A model generated the notes under the pieces. The model searched no databases. It was not told where the DNA came from and worked only from the letters and a program-made list of their open reading frames with translations. The position numbers and the translations under genes are program-made. Shown piece after piece: positions 18,030 to 40,290 of a stretch of 64,000 nucleotides of DNA (position 1 is its first letter; each line of letters starts with the position of its first letter). This DNA comes from Caldisericaceae bacterium (GTDB lineage: Bacteria; Caldisericota; Caldisericia; Caldisericales; Caldisericaceae): NCBI GenBank assembly GCA_027023025.1, contig JALVXB010000017.1:56077-120076 (forward strand), read 5' to 3'.

Positions 18030-19713
18030 TTGATACCTCCTTGTTGATATGGTCCATTGCAATAAATGCGAGTATGCTTATAAATGCAAGTAGTGCACCC
18101 ATTGCAGATGCTATTCCGAAATGCCTTCCGGATAGAAATCTATACAAAGCAACCGGCATTGTGATGTATGCATTTCTGTAGAGCATTAGTGTTGCGCCAA
18201 ATTCTCCTATTGAAATTGCAAACGAAAAAACTAGTGATGCAAGAAGAATTTTTTTAAGTATGTTTAAGTCGACGGAGAAAAAAGTTCTTATTCTGCTCAT
18301 TCCAAGACTTTCTGCTGCATACACATAAGATAGCGGCATTGAATCTACTGCGGGGGATAAAATTTTTACTGCAAAGGGCAATGCTATGAGAGTATGTGCA
18401 ACAGCTATTGCAATAAATGTATTTAATACCCAATTGATTCTTTGAAAAGCAATTAAAAACGAAAGTGCAATGGTTACAGGGGATACTGCTATGGGTAGCA
18501 TTATGAGCGATAGAAAAATATTTTTTCCTTTCTTTAAATTTCTAATTCCATACGATATTCCAAGACTAAGCGAGGTTGAGAGAAACATTGTTAAAATTGC
18601 AAAAATAAAACTATTTAATATCACTCGAATTTGTGAAACTCCAGTAATGTAGTTAAATTTTGATGAAAATAGGTTGAGAAAATTACTCAAGGTAAACTTA
18701 TGAGTAAAAGGTATGTAAAACGCGTTGAGAAAAATTATAGCGATTGGTAGCAAGATGAGCACGGTGACGAGCAAAAAATACGCAAAAGATAAAGAAAAGT
18801 CCTTCGGGGAGTGAAATAGGTTTTTTTTAGGCAAAAGTGTCCTTGAAAATGTTCTGCTGCGAATTAAACTTCCACTTTTCATGTATGCATAGACGAATAC
18901 AATCGAGAAAAGAGCCTGTAAAAGTGCAAGGGCGCTTCCCATATGAAAGTCTGAAAAAATGTTGTAGTAGGTGTATATAGAGACTTCAATTGTTGCAAAC
19001 CTTGCGCCTCCTATTACAAGGATGATTACAAAACTCAGAAAGCAGAACATGAATACGAGAGTAAACGAGGATACAATTGCAGGCAAGAGCATGGGGAATG
19101 TAACCTTCCAGAAAGTTTGGAAGCGATTTGCGCCAAGGCTTTGTGCTGCAAACAAAAGTTTGTCGGGCAACCCGTCCCAGGCAGAACCGACTACGCGAAG
19201 TATAATTGGAAAATTATAAAATGCATGAACCATTACTATTGCAGAGAAAGTGTATAGTATTGATACAGGATTTTTAAAATGAAGCACATTGATCAGAAAG
19301 TTGTTCAGGTATCCGTTTTTTCCGAACAGAACTATAAACCCAAGAGCTACTAAAACGGATGGCAAAACAAACGGGACGGTTGTAAGGGACAGAATAAGAG
19401 ATTTTCCTTTGAATTTATAATGTGAGATTATAAATGCGCCAGGGAAACCTATAATTAGAGTTATAAGTGCACTAATAAATGCTTCTTTGAATGTAAATTT
19501 TAAGATGAAAAATGTATAGGGATCTTTGAAAATGGCACCAAAGTATTGCAATGTGAATAAATTTTTATCTGTAAAGAATGCAAATTTAATAATCCAACTG
19601 ATTGGATAATAAAAGAAAAAACCTATAAATAACAAAGGTATCGATAAAATTAAAATCTTACTTAAAAATTCTTGCTTCCTTACTTCGTGAAGGAAGCCTC
19701 TGTTAATTTTCAT
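18022..19713 (-). CDS. thiamine ABC transporter permease, two fused permease halves (ThiP-like)
   Basis: 563 aa with ~12 TM segments and two EAA loops (AAQSLGANRFQTFWKVTFPMLLPAI; AAESLGMSRIRTFFSVDLNIL); directly downstream of the TPP riboswitch. Confidence 0.9.
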   Translation of the reverse strand: MKINRGFLHEVRKQEFLSKILILSIPLLFIGFFFYYPISWIIKFAFFTDKNLFTLQYFGAIFKDPYTFFILKFTFKEAFISALITLIIGFPGAFIISHYKFKGKSLILSLTTVPFVLPSVLVALGFIVLFGKNGYLNNFLINVLHFKNPVSILYTFSAIVMVHAFYNFPIILRVVGSAWDGLPDKLLFAAQSLGANRFQTFWKVTFPMLLPAIVSSFTLVFMFCFLSFVIILVIGGARFATIEVSIYTYYNIFSDFHMGSALALLQALFSIVFVYAYMKSGSLIRSRTFSRTLLPKKNLFHSPKDFSLSFAYFLLVTVLILLPIAIIFLNAFYIPFTHKFTLSNFLNLFSSKFNYITGVSQIRVILNSFIFAILTMFLSTSLSLGISYGIRNLKKGKNIFLSLIMLPIAVSPVTIALSFLIAFQRINWVLNTFIAIAVAHTLIALPFAVKILSPAVDSMPLSYVYAAESLGMSRIRTFFSVDLNILKKILLASLVFSFAISIGEFGATLMLYRNAYITMPVALYRFLSGRHFGIASAMGALLAFISILAFIAMDHINKEVSIA

Positions 19714-19719
19714 TTTGCC

Positions 19720-19811
19720 TCCCTTCGGTAGGATTACCTACATCAGGTTCAATGGGTTGAGGCATTATGCCTCTCTCAGCCTACTTGCCTGCAGCTTTCA
19801 GCACCCCCATG
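19720..19811 (-). ncRNA. TPP (THI-element) riboswitch
   Basis: Minus strand GGGGGTGCTGAAAGCTGCAGGCAAGTAGGCTGAGAGAGGCATAATGCCTCAACCCATTGAACCTGATGTAGGTAATCCTACCGAAGGGAGG contains the canonical CTGAGA, ACCC, GAACCTGAT and TAATCCTACCGAAGGGA elements. Confidence 0.97.
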
Positions 19812-19819
19812 TTTTTAGT

Positions 19820-38303: not shown

Positions 38304-40121
38304 TTATTCTTCAAGGCCTAATTCTTTTAGTTTTTCTTTGGTAGGTACTCCATTTTCGTCCCAGCCTCTGAGTTTGTAGTACTCTGGTAACATTACATCA
38401 AGATGTACAATTTGTCCTTTTGATGCACCGTCGGGCATAGGTTCTTTGAGGAATCTTGGCGGTAGAGTGTCGTCTGCTTTGGTAAGTCCTGCTTTTAGGT
38501 TCCATAGTCTTTCTAAATTCCAGATTCTTTCACCTGCTTTTAATGCTTCTTCTGTAGAATATTCAATTCCAGTAACTGCCGAAAGAAGTTGTGCATAATC
38601 GTCTGCGTCTAATGCAAATGAGCTGAACAGGCATAATCCTTCAGAATCTATTACTGCGGTAAGATCCTGGAATGTTTTTACCCATTGAGGTTTTCCTTCT
38701 GTAGTGAATGGGTCGATTTTTTGGGGCGTACCAAGAATTTCTGGAGAGATCATATAACCTCTTACATGACAGCCGCCGCGGTTTGAAGTTGCGTACTCAA
38801 GAGCGTGTCCCTGTGCGCCTCTTGGATCGTATGCTGGAATATCTTGCTTCTTTACGCTCATCGAAAGCTCAGGGTGTCCGTGTGCTTTCGCAAATTCATA
38901 AGAACCCTCAGCTAATTTATCACCTATACCTTTTCTATATGCGATTGCTTCTGGATAGTAAAGAATTGTCTCTGTATTGCCGAATTTTAATTCAGGAGCA
39001 CCGTTTAATTCTTCTTTTTTTAAGTAGCCTCTTTCGTAAAGCTCCATTGCACAAGCGATTGTGGCACCTGTGGAGATTGTATCAAGACCTAACTTATTGC
39101 AGGCATTGTTTGCTTTAATTACTGCGACGAGATCGTCTATTCCACAATCTGCGCTGAATGCCCAGCTTGTTTCGTACTCTGGTCCTTCTCCTTCTTCACC
39201 GTCTGGTAGTTTTGTTACACGGCCGCATCCTATTGGACATCCAAAGCAGGGTTTATTTCTTACGAGATATGTTTCTCTGAGTTTTTCTCCTGATACATTA
39301 TCTACACCTTCAAATACACCTGTTTGAAAGTTTCTCGTTGGATATAAGCCGTGTTCATCGATAATGTGGTTCAGAACCATTGTGCCGTAGAGTGGCAAGC
39401 CCTGAGAGGTAACACCATTTGCTTTGATTTTGTCCATTGTTAATTTTAGAATTTCTTTAAACTTTTCAGGGTTTGCAATTTCGGGCCTTTTATGCCCCCG
39501 TGTTGCAATTGCTTTTAACTTCTTGGATCCCATTACTGCCCCAACACCTGTTCTTCCGGCTGCTCTTGCTTTTTCATTTATAATTGCTGAAAATTTAACG
39601 AGGTTTTCTCCTGCCGGACCTATGCATGCTACTTTTATTTGATTATCTCCACCGAGTTCTTCTATAATTTTGTCCGTCGTTTCGTATGTATCTTTTCCCC
39701 ATAAGTGTGAAGCATCCTTTATTTCTACCTTGTCCTCTGTAACCCATAGATACACTGGTTTTTCTGATTTTCCCTCAATGATCAGAATGTCGTAACCTGC
39801 TTTTTTGAGTTCCGGCCCCCAAAAACCTCCAGAATTTGATCCTGCAATTACTCCATTTAATGGACTTTTTGTTACGACATCGTACCTTCCGCTTGTGGGT
39901 GATGGAGTAAGAGTTAATGGTCCTGTAGCAAAAATAAGTTTGTTTTTCTCTCCCAATGGATCTGCATCTGGTGAAACTTCGTCGTAAAGAATTTTTGCTG
40001 CATATCCTCTTGCACCAATAAACTTCTTTGCGATTTCTTCGTTGATCGGTTCTTCGCCAATCTCTCCTGTGGAAAGATTTACTCTGAGAATCTTTCCCAT
40101 GTAGCCTCCTAACATATCCAC
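38304..40121 (-). CDS. aor: aldehyde:ferredoxin oxidoreductase (tungsten/pterin enzyme)
   Basis: 605 aa; GYMGKILRVNLSTGEI, GPLTLTPSPTSGRYDVVTKSPLNG, GRTGVGAVMGSKKLKAIA, PCFGCPIGCGR. Confidence 0.95.
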   Translation of the reverse strand: MDMLGGYMGKILRVNLSTGEIGEEPINEEIAKKFIGARGYAAKILYDEVSPDADPLGEKNKLIFATGPLTLTPSPTSGRYDVVTKSPLNGVIAGSNSGGFWGPELKKAGYDILIIEGKSEKPVYLWVTEDKVEIKDASHLWGKDTYETTDKIIEELGGDNQIKVACIGPAGENLVKFSAIINEKARAAGRTGVGAVMGSKKLKAIATRGHKRPEIANPEKFKEILKLTMDKIKANGVTSQGLPLYGTMVLNHIIDEHGLYPTRNFQTGVFEGVDNVSGEKLRETYLVRNKPCFGCPIGCGRVTKLPDGEEGEGPEYETSWAFSADCGIDDLVAVIKANNACNKLGLDTISTGATIACAMELYERGYLKKEELNGAPELKFGNTETILYYPEAIAYRKGIGDKLAEGSYEFAKAHGHPELSMSVKKQDIPAYDPRGAQGHALEYATSNRGGCHVRGYMISPEILGTPQKIDPFTTEGKPQWVKTFQDLTAVIDSEGLCLFSSFALDADDYAQLLSAVTGIEYSTEEALKAGERIWNLERLWNLKAGLTKADDTLPPRFLKEPMPDGASKGQIVHLDVMLPEYYKLRGWDENGVPTKEKLKELGLEE

Positions 40122-40144
40122 CTCCTTGCTTTAAAGTATGCCCC

Positions 40145-40256
40145 CAAATAAAAATAGAGGCCGATTTGGCCCCTTTGCAAAGATGGCAGGCTTGCCAGTT
40201 ACCCAGCAAACCCTATCGTCTGCACTTCCCGGAGGGATAGATACAGATCGGAACCT
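40145..40256 (-). ncRNA. structured leader resembling the Moco/Tuco (molybdenum/tungsten cofactor) riboswitch
   Basis: Minus strand GGTTCCGATCTGTATCTATCCCTCCGGGAAGTGCAGACGATAGGGTTTGCTGGGTAACTGGCAAGCCTGCCATCTTTGCAAAGGGGCCAAATCGGCCTC: CCTCCG, GCxGACGA and GGCCTC blocks as recalled for the Moco motif; outer helix CCGAT/ATCGG; upstream of a pterin-enzyme gene. Confidence 0.65.
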
Positions 40257-40262
40257 TAATTA

Positions 40263-40290
40263 ATTCTAATACTAAATATAGTGTTGTCAA
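40263..40290 (-). promoter_or_regulatory. promoter for the aor leader
   Basis: Minus strand TTGACA (40290-40285), N16, TAGAAT (40268-40263). Confidence 0.7.

Follow-up and report, generated by a model that had tools for sequence, protein, structure and literature searches.

The minus strand of the window (the whole stretch of DNA that was analysed, 64 kb in length) carries an aor gene behind a structured leader, and the question posed by this locus is whether the leader is a riboswitch and, if so, which cofactor it senses and in which direction it acts. A sequence-only reading had proposed a candidate of the Moco family on the basis of several leader elements, all of which are present on the minus strand. 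The proposed promoter, TTGACA-N16-TAGAAT, was confirmed as a sigma-70-type promoter at 40263 to 40290 (TTGACA at 40290 to 40285, a 16-nt spacer, and TAGAAT at 40268 to 40263), which matches 11 of 12 consensus positions, and transcription is predicted to start at approximately 40257 to 40255, coinciding with the first base of the aptamer helix P1. The Shine-Dalgarno (SD) sequence AAGGAGG, read directly at 40121 to 40127, lies outside P1 and outside the terminator described below; from its spacing, the ATG at 40115 was picked as the start of a 603-residue protein encoded at 38304 to 40115 on the minus strand. The downstream gene had been taken for a tungstopterin-enzyme gene, and matches to PF02730 (1e-85) and PF01314 (1.2e-158) indeed identify its product as an AOR-family (tungstopterin) oxidoreductase.

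Family membership and aptamer architecture

All Rfam families were searched against the 64-kb window. RF01055, the molybdenum/tungsten riboswitch aptamer known as Moco RNA or Molybdenum riboswitch (Weinberg 2007; Regulski 2008, PMC2408646), matched the minus strand at 40265 to 40154 with a score of 47.4 bits (E value of 3.3e-8), the gathering score of the family being 36. The covariance-model check suggested in the earlier reading thus gave a significant match, and the leader also precedes the orthologous aor gene in a further ten genomes from the phylum; both results support the riboswitch candidate, and, judged by its sequence, the leader is a genuine member of the Moco/Tuco family. A search of the 1.66-Mb genome with RF01055 returned this match as the sole copy, and no second riboswitch was found upstream of wtpA when the genome was searched with the family and subtype models. 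The family model R1 scored 102.6 bits at 40259 to 40168, with the window RNA itself among its training sequences. Elsewhere in the window, a TPP riboswitch (RF00059) was detected at 19703 to 19819 on the minus strand (59.8 bits; gathering score, 54.3).

The architecture of the aptamer (40154 to 40265) was derived from the family-model alignment and from pair counting. P1 is formed by the 5′ arm GGUUCC (40250 to 40255) and the 3′ arm GGGGCC (40168 to 40173), and it is this helix, rather than the previously suggested outer helix CCGAT/ATCGG, that closes the RNA. The latter pairing was rejected; it does not belong to the P1 of the family, the sister genome is the only relative to retain it, and its ATCGG portion falls within the loop and the 3′ arm of the terminator hairpin. 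P2 (40219 to 40247) consists of UCUGUA/UGCAGA and an apical hairpin UCCC-UCC-GGGA, and is followed by the linker CGAUA (40214 to 40218), which leads to P4 in place of P3, all P3 positions of the model being gaps. The conclusion of the sequence-only reading that P3 is absent therefore stands, whereas the place to which it had assigned the gap does not: the block CCTCCGGGAAGTGC forms the tip of P2, and the gap is located between ..UGCAGAC and the AGGG of P4. The possibility of a P3 hidden in CCTCCGGGAAG was considered and rejected, this sequence being the apical hairpin of P2. P4 (40188 to 40213) comprises 11 pairs and is capped by the tetraloop GUAA (40202 to 40199), which is of the GNRA type and reads GYAA across the subtype; in the alignment, 100% of the P4 cells are paired and 5 pairs have changed on both sides. 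The remaining helix, P5 (40177 to 40187), is a two-pair GC/GC helix which, like most of the apical P2 hairpin, is invariant within the subtype. The tetraloop receptor block CCUAAG..AUGG, a usual although not universal feature of RF01055, is absent from P2 of the window subtype. Four Moco RNAs with GCAA loops have likewise been described without a tetraloop receptor (PMC2408646).

Compared with the Moco RNA of E. coli moaA, the window RNA has the same P1, P2, P4, and P5, the same conserved junction blocks, and a GNRA loop on P4, and it likewise lies in the 5′ leader of a gene connected with the cofactor. The moaA RNA, however, possesses P3, a tetraloop receptor, an SD sequence within P1, and translational OFF control, none of which is found for the window RNA. 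Considering also that the latter scores 47 bits, whereas typical members reach up to 92, one might regard it as the decayed relic of a riboswitch fold or as a protein-regulated leader, with the gene being controlled by an ordinary attenuator or a metal-responsive protein. We consider this highly improbable: every conserved unpaired block and all 29 of the 29 aptamer pairs are intact in the window RNA, the divergence is common to the whole subtype, unlike what random decay would produce, and covariation among the relatives is strong. Across nine orthologous aor leaders, 93.4% of the aptamer cells are paired and 10 pairs have changed on both sides, values that none of 500 shuffles reached.

A terminator sharing a strand with P1

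The sequence GGCCAAATCGGCCTC and the T-run after it, which had gone unrecognised in the earlier reading, constitute an intrinsic terminator at 40146 to 40174 on the minus strand (AGGGGCC-AAATC-GGCCTCT, then ATTTTTATTT). Comparison of the strands in relatives identified its 5′ arm with the 3′ arm of P1 (GGGGCC), the proposed switching strand, so that closure of the aptamer and termination exclude one another. Dinucleotide shuffles of the downstream stretch yielded such a terminator in 0.1 to 1% of trials per locus (15 of 3,000 for the window), and RNAfold favoured the terminator fold over the P1 fold by 5.6 to 11.3 kcal/mol in nine of nine leaders, the difference being 6.3 kcal/mol for the window RNA. 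Transcription would thus end here by default unless P1 were held by a bound ligand. The shared strand is not fixed in sequence and reads GGGGCC, GGAGCC, GAAGCC, or GGAGUC, with its partners in P1 and in the terminator both following the change; in G007 and G011, for example, the second base has changed from G to A, which is matched by a change from C to U in P1 as well as in the terminator. A G run (GGGGGC; 40139 to 40146 in the window) follows the T-run here and in several of the aor relatives; it could pair with the 3′ arm of the terminator, which would perhaps stabilise the read-through form.

The overlap was traced through two sets of RNAs. The first search covered 54 RNAs from the phylum of the window and the nearest sampled genomes. 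All nine orthologous aor leaders that were examined initially, among them that of the window, had the 3′ arm of P1 built into a terminator with a T-run, which was seen in none of the 44 RNAs belonging to other subtypes. The tenth aor leader of the subtype, that of G005, has the hairpin, with the T-run missing, and a search with the subtype model added one more aor leader with the overlap, from G013. Altogether, of the ten relatives whose aor leader belongs to this subtype, nine keep the P1/terminator overlap, and one has the hairpin without the T-run. When RF01055 and the subtype model were run against 384 genomes, four distant P3-less, receptor-less RNAs of the GCAA type were found, all of which precede formate dehydrogenase (fdh) alpha genes; in two of these leaders (G293 and G158) the P1 3′ arm enters a terminator of 14 pairs, and a third has a hairpin whose T-run is not clear. 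A P1-sharing terminator with T-run was thus found in 12 of 135 RNAs, each of them upstream of aor or fdh, compared with 18 of the 123 others (Fisher p of 2e-9, ignoring relatedness). Being orthologous, the ten terminator-bearing aor leaders may go back to a single origin; a conservative count gives two origins of the overlap, one in an aor lineage and one in an fdh lineage. The fdh alpha genes behind these subtype-B Moco RNAs (L131 to L134) contain an in-frame TGA after EHQARI, which is presumably read as selenocysteine, as expected for selenocysteine enzymes; one of them, scanned past the TGA break, matched TIGR01553 with 1,028 bits.

The strand arrangement expected of a transcriptional ON riboswitch is thus present, GGGGCC being common to P1 and terminator in the window, with the overlap occurring in 10 aor and 2 fdh leaders. 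Since closure of P1 and the terminator exclude one another, bound cofactor should turn aor ON, and we propose that the leader is probably a P3-less, receptor-less Moco/Tuco riboswitch acting as a transcriptional ON switch for the tungstopterin oxidoreductase. RNA polymerase would start at P1, and the cofactor, most likely in its tungsten form, would bind the nascent aptamer and hold the P1 helix GGUUCC/GGGGCC closed. With the GGGGCC strand occupied, the terminator would be blocked and aor transcribed; when the cofactor is lacking, GGGGCC would pair with GGCCUC and transcription would stop at the T-run. The predicted outcome is that the AOR enzyme is made only when its cofactor exists. While the common strand and its conservation are directly visible in the alignments, the direction of switching, and termination at this site as such, are deduced from them.

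The same aptamer could conceivably serve as an OFF switch, with the cofactor repressing aor as in E. coli moaA and the hairpin functioning only as an insulator or coming into play after some other rearrangement. The best-studied member of the family is indeed an OFF switch (PMC2408646), the P3-less RNAs of the phylum that precede WtpA or TupA genes carry the SD sequence inside P1, which predicts OFF control, and in the window and the sister genome CCGAU could pair with AUCGG or AUUGG and thereby disrupt the terminator when no ligand is bound. This pairing, however, is not kept in other relatives, and the SD sequence of the window gene lies outside P1. Moreover, closure of P1 removes the terminator, whose 5′ arm is common to both, and, with a start apparently located at P1, nothing lies upstream that could supply the strand of a separate antiterminator. 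We therefore regard repression by the cofactor as unlikely and retain the ON switch as the preferred reading.

Transcriptional ON riboswitches are known in which aptamer strands stabilised by the ligand compete directly with a terminator, as in the adenine (pbuE) and fluoride riboswitches. The window RNA would follow the same exclusion logic, the resemblance being one of mechanism only, as aptamer and ligand are unrelated. Pairing of a P1 strand into a terminator also sets it apart from the moaA RNA of E. coli. Regulski et al. mentioned terminators after some Moco RNAs without an ON logic based on P1 sharing (PMC2408646), and neither a Moco/Tuco ON switch nor a P1-sharing terminator was found described in the literature searched. 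What appears to be new at this locus is accordingly the P1-sharing terminator with the ON logic that would result from it, the aptamer family and the proposed Tuco subclass being already known.

The cofactor sensed and the sister RNAs of the phylum

P3-less Moco RNAs, 58 of 176, have been proposed as Tuco sensors; Regulski et al. (2008) tied this architecture to the tungsten cofactor by deduction from gene context, and direct binding could not be demonstrated for any Moco RNA (PMC2408646). The window RNA shares with these candidates the absence of P3, replaced by the 5-nt linker, and the association with tungsten genes, having an AOR gene downstream. Its genome encodes WtpA (368.8 bits; cut-off, 355), three AOR-family proteins, and a tungsten-oxidoreductase maturase (TIGR04317, above cut-off), which makes the use of tungsten likely and suggests Tuco as the favoured ligand. 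One molybdopterin oxidoreductase of the formate dehydrogenase type is encoded as well, so a molybdenum cofactor is also conceivable. An ON switch of the proposed kind might respond to the molybdenum cofactor or to a shared precursor or MPT form, an option that we rate as possible but rather doubtful. In its favour, metal discrimination by P3-less RNAs rested on gene context alone, and deletion of P3 from the E. coli RNA abolished regulation instead of switching specificity (PMC2408646). In addition, P3-containing RNAs of family f7 in the phylum precede TupA-like genes (best match TupA, below the curated cut-off), which violates the rule relating P3 to the metal and indicates that it is not strict. 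On the other hand, the P3-less RNAs of the phylum adjoin WtpA, TupA-like transporters, and AOR-family enzymes, and both WtpA and the maturase are present in the window genome itself, all of which is in better agreement with Tuco. At L052, L056, L060, L064, and L070, TupA-like genes are preceded by Moco RNAs that contain P3 and lack the receptor, which makes them apparent exceptions to the equation of P3 with molybdenum.

The other P3-less RNAs of the phylum are organised differently. They keep the CCUAAG..AUGG receptor and the GAAA loop, as do most P3-less relatives; in the window subtype, both are missing and a P1-sharing terminator is present. These RNAs are located before tungstate-transporter genes (WtpA or TupA-like), and they have AAAGGAGG..ATG within or just past the P1 3′ arm. 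A ribosome-binding site buried in P1 predicts translational OFF control, as is the case for E. coli moaA (PMC2408646). The aor type and the transporter type occur together in several genomes, e.g., G007, G003, and G014. On balance, we favour the view that the RNAs without P3 and receptor, with a GYAA loop and a strand common to P1 and terminator, form a distinct subtype that turns AOR and formate dehydrogenase ON, and that their sister RNAs turn tungstate uptake OFF. Repression of uptake and activation of the enzyme by one cofactor signal would represent a coherent scheme.

Two further groups of RNAs were noted in the course of the analysis. At L022 (G039:C183), L024 (G021:C80), L045 (G052:C104), and L040 (G038:C25:203271), P3-less Moco/Tuco RNAs precede genes for a tungsten-independent, NAD-type aldehyde dehydrogenase (PF00171), possibly a tungsten-free backup of AOR that is repressed by the cofactor. 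At L034, L035, L042, L048, L055, and L059, which lie before ferredoxin-AOR operons, the RNA has an ACCUCCC where P4/P5 ends that is complementary to GGGAGG, the SD sequence downstream. This complementarity is possibly a translational ON switch and is given here as a lead only, CCUCC being anti-SD by nature.

In the literature searched, neither the direct binding of a ligand by Moco/Tuco RNAs nor their choice of metal is proven, the instability of the cofactors being one reason. A compact, natural, terminator-based ON version would provide a gain-of-signal readout, in which the cofactor yields a full-length transcript, and would thus be easier to test than repression. For the organism, the combination of OFF RNAs on uptake with ON RNAs on the enzyme would amount to a simple logic, by which an anaerobe commits to tungsten enzymes only with the cofactor at hand.
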